A stretch of DNA of 64,000 nucleotides, from the NCBI GenBank assembly GCA_000531095.1, contig HG799462.1, forward strand, positions 166,267 to 230,266, given 5' to 3'. Below the pieces are notes generated by a model. That model did not search any database and was not told the origin of the DNA. It saw only the letters and a list, made by a program, of their open reading frames with translations. The position numbers and the translations under genes were made by a program. Positions 17,061 through 41,909 of the stretch are shown here, in pieces. This DNA is from Gemmata massiliana. Its GTDB lineage: Bacteria; Planctomycetota; Planctomycetia; Gemmatales; Gemmataceae. Numbering within the stretch: position 1 is the first letter of the stretch; each line of letters starts with the position of its first letter.

Positions 17061-20000
17061 TTAACCAACGAAGATCCCGAGGTTCTGCGGGTCACTCATC
17101 GCGACTTCGGACAGCAACTGGAGCGTCACGCCGTCGAAGGTGCGGACCGTGGCCGGGCGCCCCGGGCCGCTGCCCACGATGATGTCGGCGAACCCGTCAC
17201 GGTTCGTGTCCCGGGCCGCGACCCGCGCCGAACCACTGAACCCGGGGTACGCGAAGAACGAGCGGATCTCCGCCCCCGTCGACCCACTAAACACCTTCAC
17301 GTGACCGGACGCATCGGCCCCGGTCACGATGTCGACCCGACCGTCCCCGTCGACGTCCCCGGCCCCGACGTTCACGCCACCGGTGAACCCGGGGTACGCG
17401 AAGAACGAACGGATCTCCGCCCCCGTTGCCCCGCTGAACACCTTCACGTGACCGTTGATCCCGGCACCGGCGATGATGTCGTCGAACCCGTCGCCGTTGA
17501 TGTCGCCGCCGGCCACGCGCACCTCGCCCGGGAAGCCCGGGAAAGCGAAGAACGAGTAAAGCTCCGCGCCGGTGGCCCCGCTGAACACTTTCACGTGCCC
17601 GTTGACGGTCGCCCCGACGATGACGTCATCGAACCCGTCGTTGTTCACGTCCCCGGCCCCGACGTACACTCCGCCGGGGAAGTTCGCGAACGCGAGGAAC
17701 GAGCGGATTTCCGCGCCCGTCGTGCCGTCGAACACCTTCACGTGCCCGTTGATCCCGGCCCCGGTGACCGCGTCCGCCACGCCGTCACCGTTCACGTCGC
17801 CGGAGGCCGTGGTCACTCTCCCGTTGAACCCGGCGAAGGGCACAACGGTCGTGGTGGTCCCGTCGGGACGGGTGATGACCACGTTCGGCCCGGACGCGAC
17901 CGGTCCCGGGGCGGCCACGTCGTTATCGGTGATCGTCAGCGTCGCGCTCGTGAGAGCCCCGAGCACCGCCCCGTCGGTCGGGGCCGATAGTGCCAGCGAC
18001 AGGAACTCGTCCGACTCGGGGGCCGCGTCGTCGACGATCGGAATGGTCACGGTGACGGCCGTCACGCCGTCCCCGAACGTGATCGTCTCCGTGGACACCG
18101 TCACGCCTTCAATGTCACCGGTGGCGCCCACCGTGCCACCGTTCCGGGCGAGGGTGACGGTCACCGTACCGCTGGACCCGCCGGTGCGGACCAGCGTAAT
18201 TACCGCCGCAGATCCGCCCTCGGTCGCGGTGTAAGTCGTGCTACTGAACGAGATGGTGCCGGCCGGCGCGCTCGCGAGCGCGAGGCCGGCCAGCGAGGTC
18301 GCGCCCGTGCCGAAGTCGCTCACCTTCGTGGCCGCACCGGTGGTCAGGTTGATGGCGTAAATGCTCGTCGTGCCGCCGACGGTCAGCGCGGCGTACCCGA
18401 ACCCCGCGGCGGCCGCGTTGGAGGTCGTCACGCGGACGCCACCGGGAATATCGAACCCGTTGGCGTCGGTGAAATCCAACGCGCTACCGTTCAGTGTAAC
18501 GGGGACGAGCGCCGTTTGGGTGCCACTGTTAGCCGGGCTTTGGATGGCCAGCGAGTTACTCGTCGCGTCCAGCGTGTAGAGCGTGGTGGCGCCGACGGAG
18601 AGGGGCTGTCCGAACGAGTTCGTGTACGCGGCGGCGCTGACGCCGGTGACGCCCGAACCGTTGATGGCCCCGTCGGGGTTGGTACCCGTAGTTGTGGTGG
18701 TACCGTTGTCGCCGTCGACGGGCGCCCCGGTGTTCGGGTTCACACGGAAGTTGAGCCCCGTGGAGGTCGTCACGCGGATGCGGTCCAAGGTCGGGTTGAA
18801 GGCGAACCCGTAGCCCGCGGTGGCCGGATCGGGCAGGTCGACCGGTGTGGTACCATCGGTCGTGAACGCGATCTGGGCCGGGGTACCCACGGCGGTCAGC
18901 GCGCCGCTCTGCGGGTCGATCAGGTACAGCGTCGCGGTGTTCGCGGTGGCGTTCACGCCCAGTCCGTACAGTTGGCCCGTTTGTGGGCGGAAATCGATCC
19001 CCACCAGTGTCTCGCCCGCGTTGACCCCGGTCACCGGAACGACGAACACCGCGGAGGGGGTGGTGGCCCGCAACAGTTGCGTCCCGTCGGCGCTGAGACC
19101 GATGACCGGAACGGTACCCAGGTCGCTCTGAAGCGCCAGGCTCCGCACCGCGGGCGCGGCCGTACCGACGGTGCCCACGAGTGTCGCCGCACCGGTCGTC
19201 AAATCAATCCGATACAAGGCGTCGGCCCCGCCCACGGTCAGGATCGCGAACCCGGTGCCGGCGGTCGGGGCCGCGTTCGATGTCGCCGCGTTCACCCCGG
19301 CCAGGATGTCGAACCCCTTCACCGCTGTGAAGTCGAGTGCCGAGCCGCCCAGGGTAATCGTTAGTGCCGCCGTCTGGGTACCGGCGTTGGGTGCGTTCTG
19401 GATGTACAGCGCGTTGGTACCCGGGTCGAGCGTGTACTGCGTCGTGACGCCGCCGTTGTTCGTGTAATTGTTGGTGTAGGCGGTGCCGTTAACGTTCGCG
19501 GTGGCACCGTTGATCGCCCCGTCCGGGTTGGTGCCGGTGACCGAACTCAACCCGTTGTTCCCGTCGACGGGCGCGCCGGTGTTCGGGTTGACGCGGAAGT
19601 TGAGCGCCCCGGCGACCACACGGAGCCGGTCCGCGGCCGGGTTGAAGTCGATGTCGTAGCCCACGGTGGCCGGATCGGGCAGGTCGACGGGGGTTGTGCC
19701 GTCGGTCGTGAACGCGAACGTGCCGGTTCCGACTGCGGTCGCGACGCCGGTTTGCGGCGCGATCAGGTACAGGGTGGCCGTGTTCGCGGTGGCGTTCACG
19801 CCCAATCCGTAGAGGAGGCCGTTCTGCGGGCGGAAATCGATCCCAACCAGTGTCTCGCCGGACGTGATCCCGGTGAGTGCGATCGAAGTTACGGCCGCCC
19901 CGGGGTTGGTGGTACTGAACGGGATCAGGGCGGTACCGTCGCCGGTCAGCGCGTACCCGCTGGCATCGGTCACGTTGTACGCCGGCTGCGCGTCGTCTTC

Positions 20001-22118: not shown

Positions 22119-22466
22119 GGCGGCTCTTGGGGATAAATCAAGTGGTTGTTGGGCCGAGCCGAACACGGCATGGCCCATGCGTTGGGCCATGTTGGTATAA
22201 CTGCTAGAGTGCGCGTGAAAATGGGGAATATGTGAGACTAGCGAAAATAGAGAAGGTGCGAGGCATACTAATTGAACCTTTACTTATGCCTGCAAAATAA
22301 TTTTTCGCTCCCGAAACACAATTCCGAGTCAAGGCTGGTGATTTTCGACTTAATACTTAATAAGGGAGCACGTTTTAGACGGAGGAACGGCCCCAAGGAA
22401 CAAAAGCCCTCACAGGATCACGCGCTGTTCGCAAGTGTTCCGATTTCAACACAACATCCGACTCCA
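22119..22466. other. Upstream region of the giant gene, 348 bp, no gene
   Basis: AT-rich stretches at about 22270-22370 contrast with the surrounding GC content and probably contain the minus-strand promoter of the giant protein gene. No coding frame is supported. Confidence 0.5.
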
Positions 22467-22659: not shown

Positions 22660-23786
22660 GGCATCGCGAAAAGGGCTCTCCCGGAATGCCATTCAGTTAA
22701 GGTGTAAGGCGTAAGGTAGCCTAATCTTCCGACTCGAACCGGAGTCCAGGATGGTACCTTCACTCGCTACCGCCTTACGGCAGATCCGCGCCGACCTAGC
22801 TACCGCCCTCACGCCCGCAACGATCCGCCAGGCCCTCGGATGCGGATTCCCGGTTGCTCGTGTCCTCGCTCTGTTCCACGCCGGCACGGGTCTGCGCCTG
22901 AAGCTCCTGACCGCGCCTTTGCGCTCGCACGGAGTGGCCCAGGGGTGGTGGCGCCCACGTGCGCGCTCCAACCGGGCGATGTGCTCGTCGGGGATCGCGC
23001 GTTCGGTACCTTCGCACATCTGGCCGTTCTGACTCAGCGCGGCCTGCATGGTGTATTTCGCAACCGTCAGAACCGGATCGTCGATTTCGGCCCGAGGCGC
23101 CCACACGCCGTGCCCGGTTCACACCTGGGCCACGCGGGCCGGTCCCGCTCGCGTTGGGTCCGAACGCTGGGCACGTCGGACCAACCGGTCGATTGGTGCC
23201 GACCGCACGGGCTGACAACCGAACAATACGGCGCGTTGCCCCGGTTGCTGCGGATCCGGGAACTCGCGTACCGTGTGAATCGCCCGGGGTTCCGGGTCCG
23301 ATCGGTGCCCCTGGTTACCACGTTGCTCGATCCGGTCACGTATCCGGCGGACGCACTGGCCGAGTTGTACCGCGCGCGGTGGGGCGTCGAAACCGATCTG
23401 GGGCACCTGAAGACGACACTCGGAATGGACGTACTGAAGTGCGCGACGGAAGCGGGTGTGTTGAAGGAGCTGATGGTGTTCGCCACCGTGTACAACTTGG
23501 TCCGCGTGGTAATGTGCGAGGCCGGGCACCGTCAGGGCGTGAGCCCGGAGCGGATCAACTTCGTGGACGCGCTGCGGTGGCTCACGTCCGCGCCCCGGGC
23601 ACCCCGTTGCCCCGGTTGGTCATCAACCCGGTGCGACCCGATCGAATCGAGCCACGGTGTCAGAAGCCTCGAGCCAAGGAGTATCCCTACACGATCCGCC
23701 CCAGAGCTGAACTCCGCAGACGCATACGAGACCAACAACTTACACACTAACTGAATGGCATTCCGGGAGAACCCCTTTTCAATGCC
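22660..23786. mobile_element. Degenerate IS4-family insertion sequence with terminal inverted repeats
   Basis: A 23-bp identical inverted repeat (22677-22699 and 23748-23770) flanks a decayed IS4-type transposase. Similarity continues outward imperfectly to about 22660 and 23786 (ggcat...aaaaggg against its complement), giving a total of about 1.13 kb. No target-site duplication was found at either choice of ends. The right repeat begins on the transposase stop codon. Confidence 0.8.
22751..23750 (+). pseudogene. IS4-family transposase, inactivated
   Basis: The coding sequence is spread over three frames. Frame 1 from 22751 reads MVPSLATALRQIRADLATAL and then jumps from TIRQALG directly to CGFPVARVLALFHAGTG, implying an internal deletion that removes the region expected to hold the first catalytic Asp. 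A second frame gives LQPGDVLVGDRAFGTFAHLA (second catalytic Asp) and the IS4 signature Y-x2-R-x3-E-x6-K in LYRARWGVETDLGHLKTTLG. The third frame gives the C terminus, LVINPVRPDRIEPRCQKPRA ... RIRDQQLTH. With a deletion and at least two frameshifts the enzyme cannot be active. Intact relatives are common in Gemmata-type genomes. Confidence 0.85.
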
Positions 23787-24509
23787 GAACACCAGTTGCT
23801 CGGCGAACCGGAGGAAGCCGTCGCCCGGAGCCGGGACGCGGTCCAACTGGCGCGCGACGGGTCACAGCCCAGCACCCTCGCACTGGCCCTCCACTTTGCC
23901 ACGGTTCTGCACCAGTTCCGTGGTGACCCGGACTCGGTGCGGGAGTACGCTTCGGCGATCCTGGCCGTGGCGATCGAGCACCGGTTCGCGTTCTGGCAGG
24001 CCGGGGCAACGGTCCGGCTCGGCTGGGCGGGGGCCGCGACCGGGGCGGAAGGAACGGTGCTACTCGAACAGGGGATCGAAGCGTGGCGCGCGGCCGGGAG
24101 CCGGACGTACCTGGCGTATTTCTTCGCGCTGCTCGCGGATGCTCGTGCAAGGGGCGGCGACACCGACGGCGCGCTGGCGGCACTGGACGAGGCCGACCGG
24201 GTGGGGGCCGTGACTCGCGAGCGCCTGTGTGAGTCAGAAGTCCACCGACTGCGGGGCGAGTTACTCGCCGGGCGAGACACGGGGCGCGCGGAAGATTCGC
24301 TGCGCACGGCCGTGACGACCGCGTGCGCGCAACAAGCCCGGGCGCTCGAACTCCGAGCGGCACTGAGCCTGGCGCTCTTCTTACGTGACCGGGCACCGAA
24401 CGAGGCGCGTGCGGTGTTAGTCACAGCCACCACTCCTACCGGGGGGCTCCGCAACACCCCAGAGATGGCCGAAGCGCTGCTCTTCTTCGGAGTTGCGCGC
24501 TCGTGCTGA
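23771..24509 (+). pseudogene. 5'-truncated TPR domain of a predicted-ATPase/adenylate-cyclase-type regulator
   Basis: An open frame of about 245 codons starts inside the IS end with no proper start and reads NAEHQLLGEPEEAVARSRDA, then FATVLHQFRGDPDSVREYAS, GWAGAATGAEGTVLLEQGIE, FFALLADARARGGDTDGALA and HRLRGELLAGRDTGRAEDSL. This is the C-terminal tetratricopeptide region of large AAA-ATPase or class III cyclase/kinase regulators. The expected N-terminal catalytic and NB-ARC-like domains are absent, so the gene appears cut off by the IS insertion or a linked deletion. Confidence 0.75.
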
Positions 24510-24634
24510 ACGATCTCGCGCCCGACGTTCCCGAACAACCGGGATCCAGACCGGGCACCCATTAGTTCCTGCTACAATTCGTCAATATCTTAATTATTAA
24601 ATAATATTACAATTGATTTAATCTAGGTGCCAGC

Positions 24635-27208
24635 TTACCGACCGGGACCGGACGCCAGGACGCGAAAAGCGTGCGGGAGCGAGAAACCGGACGCATCGGT
24701 GACCGTCAGTTTCACTTCGGCCTCTTCCGCGCCCGCGGGCGCGTCCCAAATCACGGTGCCCTTTTCGACCCGCATCCCGGTCGGCCCGGCGTCGAGGCGC
24801 ACCTGGTGCTCGCCCCGACTCGACAGCACCGTCGGGGTGTACGTGAAGCGCTTACCGGCGACGGCGACCGGGGGCACGGACGTCACCACGAGGTGGTCCC
24901 GGCCCGCGTTCTTCAGTTCCGTCGCGAGATCGATCTTCCGGAGCACGACGGTCCGGTTGTCCCCCGCGACCGTACACAGGGCGCCCGCGCGGGGGTGATA
25001 CAGGAAGCGGTTCACCGCGAGGTGACTCGGGACGCGGTCGTCCATCACGGTTCCCCCGCTCGTCGGTACCGTGTACGTGTTCTCGAACTCCTTGAAGCCC
25101 GACAGGGTGAACAGCTTGTGGTGCCCGGCGGAGTACAGGGTCAGTTCCGGGGCGGCGAGCGGCCCGTTCGGTCTCCTCGGCTCGGCCCCGCCCTTCGGGG
25201 CGATGCGGAGGTAGAACCCCGCGTCCGCGGTCGGAACCACGTACCCGGGAACAGCGCCCCCGACCTTACTCGTGAGGTCCGGGTCGATGACCCCGCCCGC
25301 GCTGAGCAGCAGGCGCCCGTCCGCGGTCGGGAGCGGGGTTCCGAGCGCGGTAACCGCCCAGAAATCGTGATTCGCGTCCTCTTTCGTTTTGAGCGCCCGG
25401 CCGTCGCGAATTTTGCTCACGAGGATCCCGGCCCACCCACCGCCCGCCGCGACCAGGAGCGACCCGTCGGCGGACACCTCCAACGTGGTCGGTCCCCAGC
25501 CGAACATTCGGACGGGTACGTCCCGGATCTTGAGCGTCTCCAGATCGATGTACGCGGTCCGCTTCGGCGTGCGCTGGTGGAAGAAGACCGGGCCGTCGGC
25601 CCCCGAACCCATCACGAACGAGGTGAGCGGAAACTTCGTCAGGTCCGCGGGCGCGTCCTCGCGCTTCAGGAGTTCGAGCTTCTCCAGGCTCCACACTTCA
25701 ATTTTCTTGTCGGCCGGCGAGTAGATCACGACGACCCGCGCGCCAGCCGTAACGTGTGCCCCGACCGGCAGCGGGATCGTTTTGACCACCTTTGCGGTGT
25801 TCAGATCGACGACGGCCAGTCCCCTCCCGTCCTCCAACGTGACGAGCAGGAACCGGCCCCCGCCGCCGTAAACCATGTCGGTCGCGGCCACGGGCAGGGC
25901 GATCTCCGCAGTGTCCTTCGCCCAGGCGGGGCGGAACCCGGCCGGGCGCGGCACCACGATCGAGGCCGGCTCCGCGGGTTCGCCCGCGGCCGGCCCTGCC
26001 GGCGCCGGCGGCAACGGGCGCGGCACGTCCGCGGCGGCGCCCACTTTCAGTTCAAACGTCTGAAACACGGTCTTCTGCGCGTCGTCGGTGACGCTTAGAG
26101 CGACGGTCACAGAAGGTTCGGCAAAGTCCTTCGGCACCGCCCAGGACACGACCCCGTTGGCGGCCGTCATCCCGTCCGGCCCGATGTCCACTTTCAGCTT
26201 GGTCCCGGCCCTCTTCGAGCGGACCGCGGGCGCGTACTCGAACACCGTCCCGCGCACGGCGAGTGCCGGCGGGGGCGAGGTCACGAGCAGGTAGTCGCGG
26301 CCGCTCTTGACCAGCGGCGCCCACGGGTCGAGCTTGTACACCTCGACCTCTCGCTCGCCGTGCGGGAGCACCAGCACCACGCGCGCGGACTCGATGAACA
26401 GAACCCGCTCGTCGGGCGTGATCGCCTGCCGGTCCCACACGCTCACCCCGCGCGGGAGATCCACCCGGTCCAGGTCCGCAAGGGGCTTCTCGTCGCCGAC
26501 GAGGTGGAGCTTCAACTTGCTCGGCACCGTGTCGCTCCCGTGCGGGGCGTCGGCGACCTCGACGCTCAGGTAGAAGCCGTTCCCCTCGGCGGCCGGGATC
26601 GTGTAGGCGCTCCCGGTCAACTTCCCTCCAACCGCGACCCCGGCAGACGTGTAGAGCGTGTTCCCGTCCGGCGACGGGCAGACGTGCCCGTACACGTTAC
26701 CCCACCAGATCGGGACGCCCGTAAACTTCTTGCCGTCGAACGAAAAGGCCTGCGATCCCGCGTTGGTGTCCTTGCGGAACGCCGCGACCGATGTACCGCT
26801 GGCCGACACCCGAATACCGGCCGGCTGATTGAACCGCGCCGGCTCCACGCCCTTGAGCGGCAGCAGTTTCACCGGGTCCAACGGGGTCAACTTGTTGCCG
26901 AAGGCCCCGTCGGGTTTGGTGAGCACGAACACCGGCCCGTCGGCCGCGCTCGGCGCCAGCAAGCGGGCCGCCGTCCCGGTCACCGGGTTGGCGAGAGTCG
27001 CCTCCTTCTCGAACGTGGCCAGATCCCACCGCTGGATGACGTTCGCGGTCGGGTTCAGAACGAACACGTGGCGCGCGGTCCCCGCGATGAGCGCGTCGGC
27101 CTCGGCTAGTGGTAGGTACTTCACGACGCGCGCCGCGGACACGTCGAAGACCGCCATCTGTTTGGCCGCCGGCAACGCGAACACGACGAACCGCCCGCCC
27201 CCGGCCAA
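24635..27208 (-). CDS. C-terminal third of a frameshifted surface propeller protein (modules 3 and 4)
   Basis: An 857-codon frame holding two repeat modules. Each starts with a propeller-like block (GGGRFVVFALPAAKQMAVFD then ARVVKYLPLAEADA; GGGGRFLLVTLEDGRGLAVV) and ends with an Ig-like, He_PIG-type domain (FEYAPAVRSKRAGTKLKVDI ... FQTFELKV; FTYTPTVLSSRGEHQVRLDA ... LPHAFRVLAS). The coding signal continues upstream of 27208 without a plausible start (FPITAPQFEANLKTVKLPER leads into the frame), so this is not an independent gene but the continuation of the frame ending at 27258 after a +1 shift near 27305-27313. Expected to lie outside the cytoplasmic membrane. Confidence 0.8.
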   Translation of the reverse strand: MAGGGRFVVFALPAAKQMAVFDVSAARVVKYLPLAEADALIAGTARHVFVLNPTANVIQRWDLATFEKEATLANPVTGTAARLLAPSAADGPVFVLTKPDGAFGNKLTPLDPVKLLPLKGVEPARFNQPAGIRVSASGTSVAAFRKDTNAGSQAFSFDGKKFTGVPIWWGNVYGHVCPSPDGNTLYTSAGVAVGGKLTGSAYTIPAAEGNGFYLSVEVADAPHGSDTVPSKLKLHLVGDEKPLADLDRVDLPRGVSVWDRQAITPDERVLFIESARVVLVLPHGEREVEVYKLDPWAPLVKSGRDYLLVTSPPPALAVRGTVFEYAPAVRSKRAGTKLKVDIGPDGMTAANGVVSWAVPKDFAEPSVTVALSVTDDAQKTVFQTFELKVGAAADVPRPLPPAPAGPAAGEPAEPASIVVPRPAGFRPAWAKDTAEIALPVAATDMVYGGGGRFLLVTLEDGRGLAVVDLNTAKVVKTIPLPVGAHVTAGARVVVIYSPADKKIEVWSLEKLELLKREDAPADLTKFPLTSFVMGSGADGPVFFHQRTPKRTAYIDLETLKIRDVPVRMFGWGPTTLEVSADGSLLVAAGGGWAGILVSKIRDGRALKTKEDANHDFWAVTALGTPLPTADGRLLLSAGGVIDPDLTSKVGGAVPGYVVPTADAGFYLRIAPKGGAEPRRPNGPLAAPELTLYSAGHHKLFTLSGFKEFENTYTVPTSGGTVMDDRVPSHLAVNRFLYHPRAGALCTVAGDNRTVVLRKIDLATELKNAGRDHLVVTSVPPVAVAGKRFTYTPTVLSSRGEHQVRLDAGPTGMRVEKGTVIWDAPAGAEEAEVKLTVTDASGFSLPHAFRVLASGPGR

Positions 27209-27257
27209 GCAGTACGCGCCGAACCGCTCCGGTAGTTTGACCGTCTTCAGGTTCGCT

Positions 27258-28676
27258 TCAAATTGCGGTGCGGTGATCGGGAACGCCGCCGGGCCGGGCG
27301 CGGTCCCCGGGGGCGGTCGGAACGACGGCCGCGCCCGCGGGTTTCGCCACGACCGACACCCGGAACGTATGGAACAGCTCCTGCCCGCTCGCGTCCGACA
27401 CCGTCAGGATGACCGAGACCTCCTGCTTCACCATCGCGGCCGGTACGTCCCAGACCAGTTTCCCGTCGACCAGTTTCGCGCCCTCGGGTCCGGCGTCCAG
27501 TTTGAACTTCACCCCGCCCTTCTTCGACTTCACCACCGGCGCGTACTCGAACTTCGTCCCGGCGGCGGCCTCGCCCGGCGGCTCGGACGTCACAAGAAGG
27601 TAGTTCGCGCCCGACTTCGCGAGCAGCGCGTCGAAGTCGAACGGGTGGACGATCAGTTCGTCGCGCCCCTTGCTGGGCACCACGACCGCGCGCTCGCGCG
27701 GGACGAGGTACACGTCCCGGTTGCTCGCGACGGGAACCTCGATTTGAGTGGTCGCGACCGGGGTGAACTGCCCCTCGACATAGATTTTGAGCGCGCCCGA
27801 CCCGCTGCCGTCGTACCGCGGGCCGAACGGCGCTTCGACCTCGAAGAACAGGTTGCCGTGAACGGCCGGGAAGAACTCGCGCAACGAGGTGGGGGGCGCG
27901 GCCGGCGCCTCGCTCGGGTACACCCGGCGCATCTGGGCGTCGAGCACGCTGCTCCCGGTGTAGAAGTACCGGCCGCCCGGACCGGGGCGCGCGGCGAGCC
28001 CACGAATTTCGTGCATTTTCACCTCCGCCTTCCCCTCGGAGACGGTGACGACGACGGACCCGCCGTGCGCGCCCCGCAGCCAGGCGAACGTCTGCCCGTC
28101 GGCCGACGCGCCCATCGTCTCCGGCGGGCCGGCCGGTAGCGCCCCGTTGTCCTTGACCGGCACCGGGCGGAGGGTGATCGGATTAATGAGGAGGGCCTTC
28201 GCCTCGCCGAACCGGTCCGCCTTCGAGAACAGCAGCAGCGGCCCGGCGGCCCCGGCCCCCGTACACGCCGCGCTGAACGGGCCGTCGTCCGGGAGCTTGA
28301 CCGTCGCCTCCTTCTCGAACGTCGCGAAGCTCCACCGCTGGAGCACCGCTGTGCCCGGATCGATCACGAACAGGTGGTCCCGCCCGGCCGCGAGGAGCAG
28401 CGCCTGGTCCGACGCGGGCAGGTACTTGACGACCTTCGCCTCCTTCACGTCGAACACGGCGATCTGCTTCAGCTTCGGCAGGTGGAGCGCGACGAACCGC
28501 CCGCCGGCGCCGGCGGCCGCGGTCGTGAAAGGGGCCGGCAGTTTCACGACTTTTCCGTCGGTCACCGGCGCCGACTTTACGGGCTCGTTCTCGGGCGGCC
28601 GGGCCGGAGGGGGAGCGGTCCCGGGCGGCCGGACCGAGGGGGAACTCGATTTTCGGGGGATCGATCTTCGGCCCAA
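27258..28676 (-). CDS. Middle third of the frameshifted surface propeller protein (module 2)
   Basis: A 472-codon frame with one module: propeller-like repeats (GRFVALHLPKLKQIAVFDVK, EAKVVKYLPASDQALLLAAG, LFVIDPGTAVLQRWSFATFE) then an Ig-like domain (FEYAPVVKSKKGGVKFKLDA ... ASGQELFHTFRVSV). The first 30 codons from 28676 are antisense-like in composition; true coding starts after PSVRPPGTAPPPARPPEN, at the point where the upstream frame loses sense. The last codons after VVPTAP are likewise out-of-frame noise. The joins are at five-base homopolymers, 28638-28642 and about 27305-27313. Confidence 0.78.
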   Translation of the reverse strand: MGRRSIPRKSSSPSVRPPGTAPPPARPPENEPVKSAPVTDGKVVKLPAPFTTAAAGAGGRFVALHLPKLKQIAVFDVKEAKVVKYLPASDQALLLAAGRDHLFVIDPGTAVLQRWSFATFEKEATVKLPDDGPFSAACTGAGAAGPLLLFSKADRFGEAKALLINPITLRPVPVKDNGALPAGPPETMGASADGQTFAWLRGAHGGSVVVTVSEGKAEVKMHEIRGLAARPGPGGRYFYTGSSVLDAQMRRVYPSEAPAAPPTSLREFFPAVHGNLFFEVEAPFGPRYDGSGSGALKIYVEGQFTPVATTQIEVPVASNRDVYLVPRERAVVVPSKGRDELIVHPFDFDALLAKSGANYLLVTSEPPGEAAAGTKFEYAPVVKSKKGGVKFKLDAGPEGAKLVDGKLVWDVPAAMVKQEVSVILTVSDASGQELFHTFRVSVVAKPAGAAVVPTAPGDRARPGGVPDHRTAI

Positions 28677-30564
28677 ACGGGTTGGAATCGGGCGGGTCTT
28701 TCACGGGGGGATTGACCCGCGGCGGCCCCTTCCGCGGCGGCCGGACCGCGACCGCGTCCTTCTTCGGAAAGACGAGTCGAAAGGCCTGCGTGTCCCGGCG
28801 CCCGGTCGGGTCGGAAGCGGCGAACTTCACGTCGCAGAACGGCGGCGGATCGAGCGGCGGCGTCCAGTTGACGGCGCCGTTGGGGGCCAGTGCCATTGTC
28901 GACGGGTGGTCTTCGAGGCGGAACGTGACCGGCCCGTTCCGGGAGACCGCGGTGGGCTGGTACGCGAACGGGCGCCCGGTACGCGGGAACGCGGGCGGGA
29001 CCGAAGTGAACAAAACGTCGCGGTTCGCGCGGGCGAGCATCGCCGGCAGGTCGACGGGGAAGACGCGCGCGCGGGCCTCGCCCGGCGGGGCGAACACGAG
29101 CACTCCCGGCGCCGGGGCGAACACCACGCGCCTCGCGACCTTCGCCACCCAGTCGGGGTCGGTCGCCGCCCACGCCGCGATCGCGTCGCCGCCGGGCAGC
29201 TCGCCGAACGGTTGCGGGTCCGGTCCGAGGTGCAGGAAGAGCTTCACGGTTGTGGGCCGCGCCTGCGTGTACTCCACGGAGAGGACGAACGGGCCGCCGA
29301 GCGCGGGGAAGTAGTGGCGCTGCGTCCCGGGCGGCAGCGGCGCCGGGGGGAGTTTCTGCCCGTCGGGGCCGAGCAGGTCCGCGCCCACGAACGAGCGCCC
29401 GTCCGGGGCCGGTACGTGCACGCCGGCGGCCCCGAGCGCGCCGACCTTGTACTTGTGGTCGCTGTAAGTGAACCACCGGCTCCCCAGGGCCACCGACCGG
29501 CCGTCGGCGCTGACCCCGGCCGACAACAGGGGCGCGGCCGTGGTGAACGGGAAGGCGCGATCGGGTAACAGGTCCTGGCCGTCGATCGGCGCCTTCAACT
29601 CCTCGAACGTGTCGGTATCGGCCAGGCGCACCCACACCCGCCCGTCGGCCCCGCGCGAAACGTGCAAAAGCGGGCCGTCGGACGCCGACCCGACCGCCAG
29701 GTGGAGCAGCTCGAACGCGGTCGGCGCGAGCGTCGTGGTCGCAGCGCCCGCACCGGTCCGCAAGTCGTACCGCGTGACCTGGCCGTTATTTTTCCGGGCA
29801 ACGAACAACTTGTCGCGGCTCGCGGTCACGAGCGCGTCGGGCGTGTCACACGGGAGCGCCCCCGTCACGCGCCCCAGCACGGCGTCGTACAAGACGATGT
29901 CGCCGGAGGTCGCGAGCTGGAAGACCAGGTGCCGCCCGCCCCCGCCGGCGGTCACGGAGGCGACCGGCGTGGCGAACATCAGCCCGTCCTTCGTCACCGT
30001 GGGCTGGCCGCGCTTGGGCGGTTTCGGTTCGGCCTTGCGCTCGGGTTCGGGCTTCCGGTCCGGCCCGGGTTGTGGTTTGACCTCGGGCTTCGGTTTGGTC
30101 TCGGGTTGCGGCTTGGTTTCGGGCTTCGGTTCGGGCGGCGGGGCCGGGGTTTCGGCCGCCGTTTGCAATTCGGGTTGCGGCTCGGCCGGCGCGGTCAGGG
30201 CGCGCACGGTGAGGGCGCCGACGACGGCCCCACCGACGAGCCCGAGCGCGGCGATGGCGACGAGTGCCGCCCGTGCGCGCCCCGCGCGGGGCGCCTCCAC
30301 TCGGGGCGCAGCGCGCTCACCCGAGCGCGGCTTCCGGCGCGGGCGCTCGGCAGCGGGTTCCGCGCGCGGCTCTTCCGCGTCCGGTGGGGGAACGGGTCGA
30401 TCCACCGCCGCCGGCGCGGGCACGGGCGGGTCCGCGAACGCGGCCACCGGCGCGACCATCCGGATGCGCGCGCCGCACTTGGTACACTGACCGGTGCGCC
30501 CGAGCGCCTCCGGCGGAACGAGGCCCACCGTCCGACACGACGGACACGCTACGCTCACGGGCAT
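28183..30564 (-). CDS. N-terminal third of the frameshifted protein: zinc ribbon, TM helix, module 1
   Basis: Starts MPVSVACPSCR with a zinc ribbon (Cys 7, 10, 27, 30), then a Pro/Arg-rich segment, a membrane helix at about 99-123 (LVAIAALGLVGGAVVGALTV), and a low-complexity PEPKPETKPQPETKPKPEV stalk. Module 1 follows from about residue 195 (SVTAGGGGRHLVFQLATSGD) and ends with an Ig-like domain near 520-605 (FAYQPTAVSRNGPVTFRLED). Coding sense ends near KIDPPKIEFP at about 28640; the remaining ~150 codons of this frame are Arg-rich nonsense. Rejoined, the full product would be about 1,975 residues. It is 45 bases downstream of the LamG gene and is the last member of the three-gene cluster. 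Confidence 0.8.
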   Translation of the reverse strand: MPVSVACPSCRTVGLVPPEALGRTGQCTKCGARIRMVAPVAAFADPPVPAPAAVDRPVPPPDAEEPRAEPAAERPRRKPRSGERAAPRVEAPRAGRARAALVAIAALGLVGGAVVGALTVRALTAPAEPQPELQTAAETPAPPPEPKPETKPQPETKPKPEVKPQPGPDRKPEPERKAEPKPPKRGQPTVTKDGLMFATPVASVTAGGGGRHLVFQLATSGDIVLYDAVLGRVTGALPCDTPDALVTASRDKLFVARKNNGQVTRYDLRTGAGAATTTLAPTAFELLHLAVGSASDGPLLHVSRGADGRVWVRLADTDTFEELKAPIDGQDLLPDRAFPFTTAAPLLSAGVSADGRSVALGSRWFTYSDHKYKVGALGAAGVHVPAPDGRSFVGADLLGPDGQKLPPAPLPPGTQRHYFPALGGPFVLSVEYTQARPTTVKLFLHLGPDPQPFGELPGGDAIAAWAATDPDWVAKVARRVVFAPAPGVLVFAPPGEARARVFPVDLPAMLARANRDVLFTSVPPAFPRTGRPFAYQPTAVSRNGPVTFRLEDHPSTMALAPNGAVNWTPPLDPPPFCDVKFAASDPTGRRDTQAFRLVFPKKDAVAVRPPRKGPPRVNPPVKDPPDSNPFGPKIDPPKIEFPLGPAARDRSPSGPAARERARKVGAGDRRKSRETAGPFHDRGRRRRRAVRRAPPAEAEADRRVRREGGEGRQVPARVGPGAAPRGRAGPPVRDRSGHSGAPAVELRDVREGGDGQAPGRRPVQRGVYGGRGRRAAAAVLEGGPVRRGEGPPH

Positions 30565-30609
30565 CGGGGCACCTGCCGTTCGAGAAAAATCGGGAACGCG
30601 GCCGGTGAA

Positions 30610-33228
30610 TCACTTGGCCCGGCCCGACAGTTTCTTGATCTCGTCGTCGGTCAAAACACGGTCGAACAAACAGAACTCGTCGAAGTCCACCGTAAACGTC
30701 GTCGCTTGTTGCCACCCCAGAGCGAGTTCCGTGAATCGGAACTCGCCGGGGTACGTGCCGCCCGTGGTGACCGGCCGGTGGTGGCCGTTCACGGCCCAGC
30801 GCACGGTCCCCTTGTCGTCACGGGTCAGCACCAGGTGGACCCACTCTTTCGTCGCCGGGAACTCGACGGTGCCGGAGGCCGCCGGCCCGCTGATCTCGGG
30901 CGCCCCTCCGGTGAGGAGCATCCCGAGGCCGCTCTTGGTGTAATAGAACGCGAAGAAACGGGCCTTATTGGTATCGACAAACTTCCCGTTGACCAACGTC
31001 GGTCCGGCGCGGGTCCAGTTCCAGTTGTCGGTGCGGGCCCACACAGCCAGGGTGAACGGTTTCCCTTCGCCGACCGCCAGCGCGTCCGCACTGGCGCCCA
31101 GGTCCAGTCCCTCGCGCGGGCCGCCGACCGGTCCCCCGGCGGTCACTCGGATTCCCTTCCCTCGTACACCGGGCACCAGTTTCAGCCCGCGCCCCTTGCC
31201 GACCAGCTTCCCGCTCACGGACTCCCGCACCGCGGCGCCCTCGATCGCGTCGCACGAGAGGTGGAACCGTAGCCCCGAGAAGTCGCTCGCGGCGGGCACC
31301 ACGTCCGGAACCTGGTCCGAGCTACCGGCCGGCCCCGGTTTCTGGCCGGCGAGCTGCGCGAGTTCGTCCGCGGTCAGAGCGCGGTTGAACAAGCAGACCT
31401 CGTCGACGTCACAGATCGCGGCCCCCGCCAGGCTCCGCACGAAACCGATTCGGTCGTAGCGCAGTTCGATCCGCCCGCTTTGCGGGTTCGGCGCCGGAAC
31501 CCCGTTCACCACGAGCCGCATTTCGTTCTTGGGGTTGCGCACGAGCGCGACGTGGGTCCAGCGCCCGGGTTCCGGCAGAGGGGCCATGACCCGCTGCGAT
31601 ACGCCCGCCTGAGTGGGGCCGTTCGGGTGATCCTCGTAGAGGGCGTCGGCGAGCCGCTGGAGCGGGTTCAGTGCGAGGTGCAGCCCCCGGTGCTCCTTCG
31701 GTCCCGGGACCGTGTGCCCGTCGAACGCCAGGACGAAGTTCGGCGCGCGCGGTCCGTCGGCCACTGGACGCGCCCAGAACGCGAGGGTGAACGGCCGGTC
31801 CACCGCGACGACGAACTTGTCGTTCTGGTCGGACAGGTCCAGGGCGTAAAGGACCGGGCTGAGCGCCTCGTGGGTCAGTCGGAGCGCTTTACCGCGGGCG
31901 CCGTCGGTCAGTTGCAGCCCGGCCCCCTTGCCCACCTGTTTGTCCGATACGCTCTCCGTAACCGTACCGTCGGACGCGGCGTCACAGTCCAGGTAAAACT
32001 GCAACCCCTCGAGCGCGGTCGCCGGCGGGACCGGGTGCGGGGTGGCGATCGGTGCCGCCGTACCCGGCTGGGGCGCGGTGCCCACCGGCGGCGGCGGGGA
32101 GGGCCAACGGGGAGGGTCGTCCGGGGGCGGAGACTCTCCGACCGGGCGCCCGCCGAGTCGCGCGAGTTCGTCGGGCGCCAGTGCCCGGTCGAACAGACAC
32201 AACTCGTCCACCTCCACCGTCATCGCGCCGCTCGCCCAAAACATCCCCAGCGTCTCGAACTCGATCGGGAACGGGTACTTGAGGACGAAGGCCTGCTGCC
32301 GCCCGTTGACGAGCGCCTGCACCTGGTTCTTCTGGGACCGGATCAGGACCAGGTGGAGCCACTCGCCCTGGGGCGGTGTTTTGAACACCGGGTTCGCGGC
32401 GTTTTGCCTCTGCCCGGTCGAGCGGCCGGTCACGGAGTGCGACGCGAGGATCCGCCCGAAGTCCCGCTCCAGACCGATCCGCAGTTGGAGGTGGTCGTTC
32501 GTTCCCGGTACGGGCTTACTTTCCCCGACGAACACGTTCAGCGACGGGGTGAAGGTACCCGCGGAGGGTTCCGCCCGCACCCACAGGGAGAACGTGAAGG
32601 GGTGCTCCGCCGGGACGCGGAACGCGCCCGCCTGGTCGCCCAGCGCGAGCGCGGGCGCCGAAGAGGAACCGGGAACGCTCACGCGGAGGGCCTTCCCGCG
32701 CTGCCCGTTCGTCAGCGTGCCACCGGTGAGCGTGCCGACCGCCTTCCCGGACACGACTTCCGGCACCGCGGTACCGCTAATCGAGTCGAACGGCAGGTAG
32801 AACTTCAGTCCCGGGAACGTGGTGGCCGCGGGGACCGGTCCGTCGTTCACCGACGGGTCGCGATCGGACGCTTCCTGTGTCCCCTCGGGTGCCGGCTTCT
32901 CCGCGCCCGGGCGCGGGTCGCGCCCGACGAGCAGAAACCCGCCCGCCCCCGCCGCCGCGCCCACGACGCCCGATCCCAACAGCACCCACAGCCACAGCAG
33001 AGATCCGCGGCGCGCCGGGACCGGGCGCCGCTCAGCGCGCGCCGGGGACCGATCGGCCGGTTCGTCTTCGTTTTCGGGAATCTCGAGGACGGGCGCGGGC
33101 GAGGGCCGCTGCGCGCCGGGCACCCGTAGCTTGCGCCCGCACCCCGGGCACGGGACGACCCGACCGATCTCGTGCGCACCCGGCACCAGCACGGCGCGGC
33201 ACGCCGGGCACGCCAAACGAACTGACAT
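30610..33228 (-). CDS. Zinc-ribbon/TM-anchored protein with three LamG-like lectin domains
   Basis: An 872-residue protein. Zinc ribbon MSVRLACPACR ... CPGCGRK with Cys 7, 10, 27, 30; membrane helix at about 76-101 (LLWLWVLLGSGVVGAAAGAG). The ectodomain has three concanavalin/LamG-type jelly-roll domains of about 230 residues: near 135-360 (LKFYLPFDSISGTAVPEVVS ... ELCLFDRALAPDELARL), 395-620 (LQFYLDCDAASDGTVTESVS ... EVCLFNRALTADELAQL), and 640-872 (LRFHLSCDAIEGAAVRESVS ... EFCLFDRVLTDDEIKKL). Such domains bind glycans or proteins at surfaces. The ATG at 33228 has CGGAG upstream; the 47 extra upstream residues to 33369 overlap the previous gene and are rejected. 82 bases separate it from the upstream gene. 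Confidence 0.88.
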   Translation of the reverse strand: MSVRLACPACRAVLVPGAHEIGRVVPCPGCGRKLRVPGAQRPSPAPVLEIPENEDEPADRSPARAERRPVPARRGSLLWLWVLLGSGVVGAAAGAGGFLLVGRDPRPGAEKPAPEGTQEASDRDPSVNDGPVPAATTFPGLKFYLPFDSISGTAVPEVVSGKAVGTLTGGTLTNGQRGKALRVSVPGSSSAPALALGDQAGAFRVPAEHPFTFSLWVRAEPSAGTFTPSLNVFVGESKPVPGTNDHLQLRIGLERDFGRILASHSVTGRSTGQRQNAANPVFKTPPQGEWLHLVLIRSQKNQVQALVNGRQQAFVLKYPFPIEFETLGMFWASGAMTVEVDELCLFDRALAPDELARLGGRPVGESPPPDDPPRWPSPPPPVGTAPQPGTAAPIATPHPVPPATALEGLQFYLDCDAASDGTVTESVSDKQVGKGAGLQLTDGARGKALRLTHEALSPVLYALDLSDQNDKFVVAVDRPFTLAFWARPVADGPRAPNFVLAFDGHTVPGPKEHRGLHLALNPLQRLADALYEDHPNGPTQAGVSQRVMAPLPEPGRWTHVALVRNPKNEMRLVVNGVPAPNPQSGRIELRYDRIGFVRSLAGAAICDVDEVCLFNRALTADELAQLAGQKPGPAGSSDQVPDVVPAASDFSGLRFHLSCDAIEGAAVRESVSGKLVGKGRGLKLVPGVRGKGIRVTAGGPVGGPREGLDLGASADALAVGEGKPFTLAVWARTDNWNWTRAGPTLVNGKFVDTNKARFFAFYYTKSGLGMLLTGGAPEISGPAASGTVEFPATKEWVHLVLTRDDKGTVRWAVNGHHRPVTTGGTYPGEFRFTELALGWQQATTFTVDFDEFCLFDRVLTDDEIKKLSGRAK

Positions 33229-33310
33229 ACGCACTCCGGGGGCCGGGAACGCACCAAAGAAAAGCGGTCCGGGGCAACCGAGTGGGCGCCCGGGACCGGC
33301 ACGCGGGTAC

Positions 33311-36300
33311 TTACGGACGGGACCGGACCGGCAGCGCGAACGTGTGAAACGTCTCCTGACCGGACGCATCCGATACCGTCAGGATGACGGGCGCGGACCC
33401 GTCGGCGAAGTTGGCCGGCACGTTCCAGGTGACGGTCCCGTCGGCGGACACCTTCATGCCCTCGGGTCCGGCGTCCAGCTTGATCTTCACCCCGCCCTTC
33501 TTCGATTTCACCTCGGGCTTGTAGCTGAACGCCGCGCCGGTCACCGCGGCCGGGGGCCGGCTGACCACGAACAGGTAATCGATCCCGGCCTTCTCCAAGA
33601 GCGCCTCGACCTCGATCTTGTGGACGATCACCTTGTCCCCCGCGCCGTTGAGGAGCACCAGCGCGTGCGCGTCCGGAACGAGGAACGCGCGGTCGCTCAC
33701 CGGCAGCGTGGCGCGCCCCCCGGGGGCCATAGCCCCCCACGGGTCCAGTGGCAGGTCCAACCCGGCGAGGGCGCCGAGTTCGACCAGCGGGCGGGCCTCG
33801 CCGAGCATCCGCAGCGTGACCTTGGTGTCGGTCTTGTTGTTGAACCGGTCCGGCCCGGACACGGTCAGAAACAGCCGGCCGTGGGCGGGGGGAATCGGTT
33901 GCCCGCTCAGCCCCTTCGCGTCGCCGAGCGCCTTGAGTTCCGGGGTGTACAGCGCCCCGGCGGTGAACAGCGTTCCGTCCGGGCCGGGCAGGATCGCGCC
34001 GACCGAGGTGTGTTCGTAGTACGACTTGGCGCCCTCGTCCCCGACCACCATGCTGGACAGACCCGACGGGCTGAGCCCCATCGTCCACCACGCGAACACG
34101 CGCCCGTCGGCCGAAACGCGCGCCGACGGCGGGTACTGCGGGTGGCCGGCCATGCCGCCCATTCCGCCGCCGCCGTTGGCCCCGGCGCCGAGTTCGATCT
34201 CCTTGAACGTTTTGCCGTCGAGTGCGCGGTTCGGCCCGACGACGAACACCGGCCCGTCGGTCGCGTGCCCGACGAGCAACTGCCGGGGCGTGCCCTTGAG
34301 CGGGTTGGCGACCGTCAGCTCCTTCTCGAACGTCTTCAGGTTCCACCGCTGGACGACGTTGGCGGTCGGGTTGAGGACGAACAGGTGCTCGTTGCCGGCG
34401 GCGATGAGCGCGCCCTCTTCGCCCAGCGGCAGGTACTTCACCACCTTCCCCTCGCACACGTCCAGCACCGCGACCTGCTTCACCTTGGGAACGCGGAACA
34501 GGACGTAGCGCCCGTTCCCGCCCATGCAAGTCATGTCCGCGCTCCCGGGGAGCTTGATCTCTGACTTGTCGGCCGCTTTCGTCGGGGTGATCTTCGCGGG
34601 GGCCGCCGCCGGGCGCACGAACCCCGGCTTCGGGTCGCGCGCCGGGGCCGCCGGGCGCTTGGGCTCCGGGACCGCACCCGGGGCCGCCGGGCGCTTGGGT
34701 TCCGGGCGCTTGGGCTCCGGATCGGGTTCCCTGACCGCGACCGCGTGCGGCGCGACCGCGCGGGTCAGCGCGAAGGTGTGGAACACCTCCTGACCGGACT
34801 TGTCGGACACGGTGAGGATGACCGTGTCGCTCCCGGCCCAGTCCTTCGGTACGGCCCACGTCACCGTGCCGTCGGCCGCGACCTTCAGCCCTTCGGGGCC
34901 GGCGTCCACCTTGACCGTCACGCCGCCCTGTTTGGACTTCACCCCGACCTTGTACGTGTACGGCTTGCCCGGCTCGGCCGCGGGCGGGCGGCTGGACACG
35001 AACAGGTAATCCACGCCCGACTTGTCCAGTTCGGACTGCAGATCGAACTTGCGCAGGTGCAGCGCGTCGTTCGTCGGAGCGATCCAGGCGATCAGCCCCC
35101 CCGCCGGGGTGAACAGGAACCGCTTGTCCCGGGTGAAATCGGTCGCGGCCCAGGCGTCCGAACCGAGCGCGACGCCGATGTCACCGAGGGACACGATGGG
35201 GCGGTCGTCCGTGGTGCGGAAGACGCTCGCCTTCGTCGCGCGGGGCTGGTTCGGATCGGGGAACCCGAAGTCGTCGCTCTTCGCCGGCGCGAACGACAGG
35301 TACCAGTCGCCCTGTTGGGCGGGAATCCGGGTGCCGGCGCCCCACTCCTTCTTGCCGATGGCCTTCAGTTCCGGGGTGTAGACCCCCGTGTCGGTGAGCA
35401 AGTGGCCGTCGGCCGCGGGCACCACGTTCCCGGCTGACGTGTGCTCGTTGTAAGCCTTCACACCGGTTTCCGAGGCGACCAGCCCGTTCAACCCGGTCGG
35501 GGTGTGGCTCGTGGCCCACGCCCCGTACACGCGCCCGTCCGGGCTGGCCCGGTAGTGCATCGCGTCGCGGAACGAGGCCGTCAGCGCGCGCCCGCCCGCG
35601 TTGTTGCCGGCGTCGAGTTCCTTCAGCGTGGTGATGTCGAGGAACGTCACCGGGGCCTGGGCCAGCGCGTCGGTCCCCTTCCCGTAGAAGACGAGCATCG
35701 GGCCGGCACTGGCCGCGCCCAGGCACGTCTGTTTGACGGTACCGCGGAACGGGAGCTTGGCCGTCACCTCCTTCTCGAAGGTGCCCAGGTCGTAGCGCAC
35801 GATCACTTCGGTGTCGGGGTACACGACCAGCAATTTGTTCATGCCCGCCGCGAGGCACGCGCTGCCCCCGGCCAGCGGAATGTACTTGGTCACCTTCGCC
35901 TGGTTCACGTCGAAGACCGCGACCTGTTTCTGATCCGAAAGGAGCAAGCACCAGTACCGCCCGCCGCCGCCGACGACGGCGTCCGACACCTTGCCCGGGA
36001 GCTTGAGTTCGACCGCGTCCTTGTCGAGCGGCGCCGGTTTCAGTTCGACCGCGACCGGGACCGGGAACGTGAGCTTGCCCGTGGGCGCGGCCGGCTCCGG
36101 GGCGCCCGGGGCCGGGAACCCGGGCGGGTTGAACGGCTGCCCCAAGGGGGGAACCATCTGACCGAACGGCGGGCGCCCGAAGGGGGGGACCATCGGCTGA
36201 TTGAGCGGCGGGCGCCCGGGGGGGACGATCGGCGGCTCGGGCGGGAACACCGGGGCACCGGCGTTGGGTTCTCGGTCCGTTGGCGGCGGTTCGGTGACCG

Positions 36301-36757
36301 GGTCCGGCGCGCTCACCTTGGGTGGTCGCGGGGTGGGCGGATTGTTCGGAGCGCTCGGGGGCACCGACGGGGCCGGCTTGGGGGTGACTTCCGGCTTCGG
36401 CGCGGGTTCCGGTTTCGGCTCCGGGGCTCGTTCCGCGGGCGGATCGGCCTGTACCGTCTCGTCGGGCTTGGGTTTGTCAAACGCCCCCGTAATGACCAGC
36501 ACACAGCAGGTCACAACGACGGTCGCGCCGAGTGCGAGCGCGCCGAACACGAGTCCCAGTATCAAAACGACCCGGCGCGTGGCCCCGTCGTCGTTGGGGA
36601 TGGGCTCCAGTTCCTTCTCCGGCACGGGAGCGGACCGGACCCGGCTCGGCACGGTAAACTTGCCGTCGCAGGCGGCGCACTGCGCGCGTTTACCCACTTG
36701 GGCAGGTGTAACGGTGACAGGCTCTTCACAATACGGGCAATTGTGGAGGTATCGCAC
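33311..36757 (-). CDS. Zinc-ribbon/TM-anchored protein with two propeller/Ig-like modules
   Basis: An 1,148-residue intact paralogue of the broken gene at 24635-30564. Zinc ribbon MRYLHNCPYCE ... CAACDGKF (Cys 7, 10, 27, 30); membrane helix at about 63-92 (VVLILGLVFGALALGATVVV); Pro-rich stalk to about residue 240, including repeats of PPFGRPPFGQ type. Module 1 spans about 245-650, starting GGGGRYWCLLLSDQKQVAVF and ending DKSGQEVFHTFAL. A Lys/Pro/Ala linker (EPKRPEPKRPAAP) precedes module 2 at about 725-1148, starting GGNGRYVLFRVPKVKQVAVL and ending DASGQETFHTFALPV. First gene of the cluster; a weak GGTG lies just before the ATG. Function unknown; the architecture suggests a tethered extracytoplasmic sensor or adhesin. 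Confidence 0.85.
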   Translation of the reverse strand: MRYLHNCPYCEEPVTVTPAQVGKRAQCAACDGKFTVPSRVRSAPVPEKELEPIPNDDGATRRVVLILGLVFGALALGATVVVTCCVLVITGAFDKPKPDETVQADPPAERAPEPKPEPAPKPEVTPKPAPSVPPSAPNNPPTPRPPKVSAPDPVTEPPPTDREPNAGAPVFPPEPPIVPPGRPPLNQPMVPPFGRPPFGQMVPPLGQPFNPPGFPAPGAPEPAAPTGKLTFPVPVAVELKPAPLDKDAVELKLPGKVSDAVVGGGGRYWCLLLSDQKQVAVFDVNQAKVTKYIPLAGGSACLAAGMNKLLVVYPDTEVIVRYDLGTFEKEVTAKLPFRGTVKQTCLGAASAGPMLVFYGKGTDALAQAPVTFLDITTLKELDAGNNAGGRALTASFRDAMHYRASPDGRVYGAWATSHTPTGLNGLVASETGVKAYNEHTSAGNVVPAADGHLLTDTGVYTPELKAIGKKEWGAGTRIPAQQGDWYLSFAPAKSDDFGFPDPNQPRATKASVFRTTDDRPIVSLGDIGVALGSDAWAATDFTRDKRFLFTPAGGLIAWIAPTNDALHLRKFDLQSELDKSGVDYLFVSSRPPAAEPGKPYTYKVGVKSKQGGVTVKVDAGPEGLKVAADGTVTWAVPKDWAGSDTVILTVSDKSGQEVFHTFALTRAVAPHAVAVREPDPEPKRPEPKRPAAPGAVPEPKRPAAPARDPKPGFVRPAAAPAKITPTKAADKSEIKLPGSADMTCMGGNGRYVLFRVPKVKQVAVLDVCEGKVVKYLPLGEEGALIAAGNEHLFVLNPTANVVQRWNLKTFEKELTVANPLKGTPRQLLVGHATDGPVFVVGPNRALDGKTFKEIELGAGANGGGGMGGMAGHPQYPPSARVSADGRVFAWWTMGLSPSGLSSMVVGDEGAKSYYEHTSVGAILPGPDGTLFTAGALYTPELKALGDAKGLSGQPIPPAHGRLFLTVSGPDRFNNKTDTKVTLRMLGEARPLVELGALAGLDLPLDPWGAMAPGGRATLPVSDRAFLVPDAHALVLLNGAGDKVIVHKIEVEALLEKAGIDYLFVVSRPPAAVTGAAFSYKPEVKSKKGGVKIKLDAGPEGMKVSADGTVTWNVPANFADGSAPVILTVSDASGQETFHTFALPVRSRP

Positions 36758-41282: not shown

Positions 41283-41909
41283 AGATCGAACTGTTTTTAT
41301 AGAGGCTCAGAACGGAACGTGTCAAGCGGTATGGTCCCACCATTTAGGGAGGCCGTTACAAACATTATTCTCACGTGTTCGATTGTGAAGCACTCCACCC
41401 GCGGGTCGTGGAAGTATCGATTAGGTTGTTACAAACATTAATTCCCAAGTGTCCGGTTGTCGGGCGCCGGGGCCAATCAACTATCACAATTGATGACAGA
41501 TTAGGTTCAGATCGTTGATAAGTACCGTCGCCGGTAGGCTCGGGAACCCGTTCTTTGGTCGATGTTTAGCAATTGTCGCATTTTCATGTGACATACACGA
41601 CGTTTGGCTCCTGCATCCACGAAATCCAAGGTTTCGCGCCTCGACAGCACAATTCCGAGATTTGTGCGCCGCAAACGAAACGGCCGCACTTTCCCGTGCG
41701 AAGACACATCCGGCTCATAGCCTTCTCATAGACTGCGGGCATACTGGAAGTGCATCTGTATCTGACCATCCTGAACCGATTGGCACACGGTCACGTTCCC
41801 CGGCGCGAAACTTAACGCGCGGCAACGTGTTCCTCTGTTGTGTCACTTTCTGATCTGATTGGTTTTTGACACGGAACGTGTAGTCCATAAACACCACGCG
41901 GGTACCATC
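41283..41909. other. 627-bp intergenic region, AT-richer, with direct repeats
   Basis: No gene is supported. The interval contains the imperfect direct repeat at 41355-41460 and a TTGACA at 41866-41871 with TAAACA at 41888-41893 (16-base spacer), a possible promoter for the downstream giant gene. Composition is markedly AT-richer than the flanking genes. Confidence 0.55.
41355..41460. repeat. Imperfect direct repeat of about 32 bp
   Basis: GTTACAAACATTA recurs exactly at the start of both copies (41355-41386 and 41428-41460), followed by similar but not identical sequence ending GTGTTCGATTGT and GTGTCCGGTTGT. Copy spacing is 73 bases, about seven helical turns. Possibly paired regulator-binding sites for either flanking gene. 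Confidence 0.6.

Follow-up and report, generated by a model that had tools for sequence, protein, structure and literature searches.

A class-wide propeller-Ig module on zinc-ribbon membrane proteins and trypsin-like proteases of Planctomycetia, viewed from a three-gene cluster of Gemmata massiliana

A 64,000-nucleotide stretch of the Gemmata massiliana genome (GCA_000531095.1, contig HG799462.1, positions 166,267-230,266, forward strand) was analysed; this whole stretch is the window, and positions are given in it unless another locus is named. It contains three consecutive minus-strand genes, called A, B and C here, that an initial annotation proposed to be a surface sensory or adhesion complex whose zinc ribbons may dimerise or share a partner. 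We find that the interesting part of the cluster is the ectodomain module of genes A and C, a beta-propeller followed by an immunoglobulin-like (Ig) domain, which belongs to a family with recurrent fusions to trypsin-like proteases. The ribbons had been over-read, and one gene, C, is broken. Planctomycete envelope proteomes are large and poorly understood. A module that recurs on anchors made of a ribbon and a transmembrane (TM) segment, on lipoproteins, on secreted proteins and on proteases offers a way to study adhesion or quality control in the envelope, and the protease fusions make an uncharacterised ectodomain a testable recognition domain. The source genome is 9.27 Mb in size (22 contigs, completeness 96.5%). 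Comparisons were made with a family sample of 41 genomes and a class (Planctomycetia) sample of 297 genomes, the source genome being counted in both. Genes A and B are intact as sequenced, and gene A is laid out as follows.

33311..36757, minus strand: gene A, 1148 amino acids, GTG start; zinc ribbon, TM segment, proline-rich stalk, two propeller+Ig modules (open reading frame (ORF), He_PIG, module-1 model, same-genus relatives L180/L181)
36638..36757, minus strand: gene A zinc-ribbon head, cysteines at residues 7, 10, 27 and 30 (reading, alignment A6)
34763..36058, minus strand: gene A module 1, propeller + Ig (homology, AlphaFold2 model, VIA-align, Foldseek, tree)
33314..34651, minus strand: gene A module 2, propeller + Ig (homology, tree)

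The two propeller+Ig modules first proposed for gene A are there. The Ig end of the module rests on Pfam, in which He_PIG (PF05345) matched gene A in two stretches at E 4.8e-10 (40.2 bits, above the cut-off of 24) and 11 of 16 modules at E<=0.1. The propeller was modelled for A module 1. With 16 alignment rows, AlphaFold2 gave a nearly all-beta structure with short helices only (predicted local distance difference test 83.8, predicted template modelling score 0.85), and VIA-align matched this model to WD40 propellers with Z up to 18.0 and a root mean square deviation (rmsd) of 3.8 over 272 residues. The model supports an all-beta beta-propeller for A module 1. The top Foldseek match was 1l0q (E 1e-11, probability 1.00; a closer fold elsewhere is possible), an archaeal surface-layer protein with a tandem YVTN beta-propeller and a PKD domain, likewise a propeller plus an Ig-like domain. 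This is a fold match without a sequence match: a PDB sequence search gave no chain at E<=0.001 (best E 0.075, a different protein), and the title of the 1l0q entry names no zinc ribbon or TM head. The propeller or lectin ectodomains of the initial annotation are thus upheld as folds, the propeller by the model of A module 1 only and the Ig end and the LamG-like domains of gene B by Pfam, while their outward topology is a prediction.

The modules of A, of C and of L003, a locus on another contig of the source genome, are homologous, with 27-43% identity to A module 1. The module hidden Markov models were built partly from window modules. A tblastn search without any self-built profile, and so free of such circularity, matched the first piece of gene C to the modules of L040, in another genome, at E 5.8e-28. 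The propeller+Ig module is a class-wide Planctomycetia unit: the module alignment matched 121 of 297 class genomes, many at the Ig end only (about positions 343-424), and by our own count at least 48 of the 297, source included, match at least 300 of the 426 module positions. In the family sample the A module was found in 7 of 41 genomes at E<=0.001, again with the source included, the match in G033 being to the Ig end only. Among the loci read, L037, L038, L039 and L040 are apparently the same records as G084, G204, G290 and G081; L037 duplicates L181, L038 duplicates L197, and three of 20 later module loci repeat earlier ones.

The module sits on several kinds of protein. Zinc ribbon, TM segment and one or more modules are combined in gene A, L037/L181, L180, L182, L191, L038/L197, L061, L063, L064, L067 and in genes of L194, L196 and L198; in L066 and L068 the ribbon comes after several TM segments. 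L069 and two homologues of it, in L196 and L198, have a TM segment without a ribbon. The L040 protein carries a lipobox, four modules and SHD1, and signal-peptide-like starts are found in four of the five genes of L192, in L193 and in two genes of L194. The five L192 genes are consecutive (L192:2514-19834) and have one to three modules each. The L066 protein (L066:7779-11477) has, besides its ribbon and several TM segments, a single module and a C-terminal WD40 domain of canonical type.

Nine of 14 proteins read join a trypsin-like domain to the same homologous propeller+Ig module as in A (L003, L062, L065, L185, L186, L187, L188, L189 and L199), all nine with His/Asp/Ser motifs. Two of these, L065 and L187, have a ribbon head as well, and L039 is a partial trypsin-like protein with a module. 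A secreted protease of this kind is encoded in the source genome itself (L003, Trypsin_2 E 1.6e-26); this protein (L003:220-2736, C4) has one module, set on very short branches from that of the same-genus L185. In L040 a trypsin-like gene, with His/Asp/Ser motifs and without a module, stands directly before the four-module gene.

A tree was built of 65 modules, with 21 of its 62 inner branches open; modules of fewer than 250 profile positions, the duplicates L037, L183 and L197, and the partial L041 and L070 were omitted. A module 1 falls in a supported clade with module 1 of L180, L181 and L038 and with the first gene of L196, and A module 2 in another supported clade with module 2 of L180, L181 and L038 and the single modules of L182 and L191. 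These separate clades by position indicate that the two modules of A are old and not interchangeable. One clade (100/100) holds seven protease modules and the module of L190. The L190 protein (L190:7201-10188), whose module thus groups with protease modules, is without a trypsin motif and has a CxxCH stretch at its N-terminus. The protease module of L187 groups with proteins of L196 and L198 that have a ribbon only (100/99), and that of L065 with L184, a partial protein (100/100). Protease-bearing modules therefore occupy at least three supported groups, with L039 unplaced, and their separation implies more than one gain or loss of the protease trait. The pairing of gene C module 1 (Ca_m1) with L061_m3 was flagged as a long-branch join.

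Gene A is probably an inner-membrane-anchored envelope receptor or scaffold with a generic head, whose modules would bind partners. Such a protein would sit in the inner membrane of this Gemmata-type planctomycete in type-II orientation (N-in, C-out), with the zinc-ribbon head kept in the cytoplasm, one TM helix as anchor and the proline-rich stalk spanning part of the envelope. Its two different propeller+Ig modules may bind partners in the envelope, holding protein or glycan ligands that could be substrates of envelope proteases. The same module would serve as a recognition unit where it is borne by trypsin-like proteases, secreted proteins or lipoproteins. An N-in/C-out topology, with cytoplasmic head and extracytoplasmic ectodomain, is predicted for the ribbon-TM proteins from hydropathy and lysine/arginine counts. 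The protease connection of A is suggested by the module-protease fusions and by the adjacency in L040.

Several observations weigh against this reading. Lysine/arginine residues before and after the TM segment number 4/0 in C and 5/2 in B, but 2/2 in A, so that gene A itself is neutral. While the Trypsin_2 module proteases have a protease domain with His/Asp/Ser motifs, A, B and the gene C pieces have none (no Trypsin_2 in Pfam at E<=0.1). Nor was any protease found among five scanned neighbours (transposase, epimerase, TPR, radical-SAM and DUF4394 proteins), a scan that took in only these of the other window genes. The PDB comparison spans model residues 12-347 and barely covers the Ig end, and the superposition on 1l0q is poor overall (rmsd 19.9, 11% identity). 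With its backbone unresolved, the tree gives no firm count of independent protease fusions. Finally, no ligand is known for the modules, whose binding role is a prediction.

It is possible, though we think it unlikely, that the modules are structural, with A and C serving, much as archaeal surface-layer proteins do, in a coat or in adhesion and having no tie to proteolysis. The closest Foldseek match is indeed a surface-layer propeller+PKD protein, and the tandem arrays of L192 and L194, with their signal-peptide-like starts, would suit such a role. However, the protease fusions are repeated, A appears to be anchored in the inner membrane with a cytoplasmic head, and modules 1 and 2 stay distinct by position from one species to the next and have not been homogenised in the manner of repeats. 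A bolder version of the receptor reading, which we regard as decidedly doubtful, is that the Planctomycetia propeller-Ig unit is an interchangeable part for envelope proteolysis, acting in cis on trypsin-like proteases and in trans on the ribbon-anchored A and C, with ligands tuned by position and the ribbon reporting occupancy inward.

In the initial annotation, by contrast, the three genes would make up a dedicated complex at the surface, within which the cytoplasmic ribbons may dimerise or contact a common partner. Re-reading did find three consecutive minus-strand heads, each with cysteines at residues 7, 10, 27 and 30 and each followed by a TM segment and a proline-rich stalk, and the reported gaps of 82 (A-B) and 45 (B-C) bases were correct, so that strand, spacing and head type all speak for such a complex. 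For the putative operon that these gaps suggested, the A-B gap was seen to hold a terminator-like site, but the region has 8 such sites in total against a mean of 9.2 in shuffles; the terminator count is thus as in shuffles, and no promoter-like site was seen in the scanned cluster region. Gene B, the second member, is as follows.

30610..33228, minus strand: gene B, 872 amino acids; zinc ribbon, TM segment, three LamG-like (Laminin_G_3) domains (ORF, Pfam)
33109..33228, minus strand: gene B zinc-ribbon head (alignment; head matches in many family genomes)

For gene B, an ATG inside the ORF (33228) is a likelier start than that of the longer ORF at 33369. Its three LamG-like domains, as originally described, are matched by Laminin_G_3 (PF13385) in three stretches at E 8.9e-36 (123.8 bits, above the cut-off of 27.6). 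An NCBIfam scan gave nothing above a cut-off. Gene B was matched in 20 of 41 family genomes, mostly at the ribbon-TM head, and partial LamG matches were seen in G034, G030 (stops inside) and G032. Its ectodomain had no match better than E 0.11 in 15 module loci, and a B-type LamG profile no match in 20 module loci, three of which repeat earlier ones. Gene B is best read as a lineage-specific lectin-like protein on a generic ribbon head.

The ribbon heads do not support a special set acting together. All three have CX2C-X16-CX2C at the N-terminus (by reading). Heads of the Zn_ribbon_4/5 kind in Planctomycetes, which we take to be MJ0042-type, likewise have this motif at the N-terminus with a TM-like segment after it, but carry different ectodomains: a scan of 10 further ribbon proteins recognised LRR, PD40 and GYF_2 behind the ribbon, each in a single protein. 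In Pfam, gene C matched PF13717 (Zn_ribbon_4) at E 0.0033 (17.7 bits, below the cut-off of 30.3), and the A and B heads gave no PF13717 match at E<=0.1. The heads of A and B match other ribbon proteins at E 5.3e-5 and 1.6e-8, respectively; matches of ribbon profile A6 to the A, B and C heads are circular, as it includes all three. PF13717 gave 58 matches in the source genome at E<=10 among 150 scored of 312 candidates. Of 30 such loci fetched, 24 had the 16-residue gap and 11 an ATG yielding positions 7/10/27/30. With a profile made from 21 heads, matches numbered 65 at E<=1 and 46 at E<=1e-3 (150 of 534 candidates scored), up to 21 of the 46 being the profile's own training rows. The exact 7/10/27/30 register was found in 18 of the 30 best ribbon loci (16 ATG, one GTG and one TTG start), or 15 of 27 when the three window genes are excluded; 10 had another register and two were without one CxxC pair. 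A TM-like segment was seen in 27 of the 30, exactly one in 19 (part read).

The shared register is therefore real in A, B and C but not distinctive. Moreover, the three heads have a mean identity of 0.19 at variable columns, and 79% of the 1330 triples that can be drawn from 21 heads are at least as close, so their mutual similarity does not exceed that of random triples. By our own reading, the first cysteine is residue 8 in the A relatives L180, L181 (= L037), L182 and L038 and residue 7 in L191, so position 7 is not constant even within the A type. As a sign of a system, the register was rejected, being the commonest form in the genome and borne by ribbons that are not mutually close. Neighbouring pairs of ribbon matches occur elsewhere in the source genome, at C4:339683-340172 and C11:132614-134029; both C4 heads are without one CxxC pair by motif reading.

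Co-occurrence of such genes elsewhere, which the initial annotation had set as a check, was borne out in part. Clusters of adjacent module genes recur in two other genera, one with L192 and L194, the other with L196 and L198. L196 has three adjacent module genes, one of them in the A module-1 clade and standing beside the other two, and L198 has two. In L194 three module genes are followed by an overlapping ribbon-TM ORF without a module. All of this favours a dedicated complex. Against it, B and C do not stand beside A at any of the four same-genus A-type loci (L180, L181, L182 and L191): none of the four has another module, ribbon or B-type LamG match in the fetched flanks, which on one side of L181 amount to about 1.3 kb only. 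The A-B-C gene set is particular to the source genome in the sample. With generic, mutually dissimilar ribbons and gene C disrupted, a dedicated three-part ribbon complex is not supported, and we consider it improbable.

Gene C was first described as a single gene with four modules. The four modules are present, but they are split over three reading frames, with the breaks in two proline-rich linkers.

24635..30564, minus strand: gene C, frame-disrupted; ribbon, TM segment, stalk and four propeller+Ig modules over three reading frames (ORFs, codon bias)
30454..30564, minus strand: gene C zinc-ribbon head (PF13717 E 0.0033, under cut-off)
28759..30003, minus strand: gene C module 1, the most divergent (tblastn E 5.8e-28 to L040)
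28574..28700, minus strand: gene C stretch containing the first frame change (ORFs, codon bias)
27339..28574, minus strand: gene C module 2 (homology)
27271..27339, minus strand: gene C linker containing the second frame change (ORFs, codon bias)
26024..27271, minus strand: gene C module 3 (homology)
24638..25927, minus strand: gene C module 4 (homology)

Ribbon, TM segment and module 1 lie in ORF 28183-30564, and module 2 in ORF 27258-28676; ORF 24635-27208 holds modules 3 and 4, in a frame that is open from 27403. A net +1 shift is needed at both steps, inside 28700-28574 and 27339-27271. He_PIG scored 14.2 and 17.8 bits in two of the pieces, both below the cut-off of 24, and did not match the third; module homology was seen by module comparison and tblastn despite these scores. 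Gene C is best read as a four-module relative of A that is broken in the present assembly, and the breaks are more likely decay or a sequencing or assembly error.

One alternative, which we consider very unlikely, has gene C read across both breaks, with +1 ribosomal frameshifting or phase variation at C-rich linker tracts producing proteins of one, two or four modules. Its merits are that both breaks have the same sign and fall in linkers with runs of five C (chance about 0.004 under uniform placement), and that codon bias is preserved on either side: G+C at third codon positions is 0.89-0.92 in the module frames flanking the breaks, against 0.52 in the first ORF's read-on tail. Frame changes deep inside genes also look rare elsewhere. 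A codon-usage scan of 20 stretches of 20 kb each gave 15 frame-change calls, mostly at the ends of called genes, and by our own reading two of the 15 in these 400 kb were well inside genes. That scan detected only one of the two breaks in gene C, missing the second, and so under-detects. Further, gene C has 21 runs of at least five C or G, some of them in the break linkers, and no gene C orthologue was found that could show conservation. In 13 other ORFs with two or more modules the linkers are unbroken, which argues against conserved recoding, these being ORFs only and broken relatives not having been searched for systematically. Beside gene C, in the region 22840-24562, is a DDE_Tnp_1 transposase ORF that matches profile positions 76-200 of 200 only. 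ORF pieces after it, at 23755-24513, show stops in the frame tried, and together these are perhaps a mobile-element scar adjoining gene C.

That A and C are membrane-coat-like proteins as in Gemmata obscuriglobus is almost certainly wrong, since the planctomycete proteins of that type also contain a beta-propeller but require a C-terminal alpha-solenoid after it (PMC2799638), which is not seen in A, where an Ig domain follows and module 1 is nearly all beta; gene A was rejected as a member on this ground.

The initial annotation knew of no described system with this architecture, and searches of open-access literature, judged by titles and abstract beginnings, turned up no description of a ribbon-TM-propeller-Ig protein, which is weak evidence of novelty. 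Proteins of the TcaA type are built of a ribbon, a TM segment and an ectodomain. TcaA of Staphylococcus, in a different phylum, is described as a 454-residue zinc ribbon domain-containing protein (PMC10611510); its likeness to A, B and C is one of description. The MoxR-vWA beta-propeller ternary systems (PMC7159879) are defined by MoxR and vWA partner genes. In a paper on the Tuwongella proteome (PMC8567305), WD40 is the one term that occurs of six looked for.

Farther out in the window, the protein encoded at 17061-22190 combines four DUF4394 stretches with Calx-beta and FG-GAP repeats. Its N-terminal motif, ETLEDRATPA, resembles the EVLEDRTVPA at the N-terminus of a repeat-rich protein of 1764 amino acids at 41859-47153. 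Starts of this type are thus found in proteins flanking the cluster on both sides.

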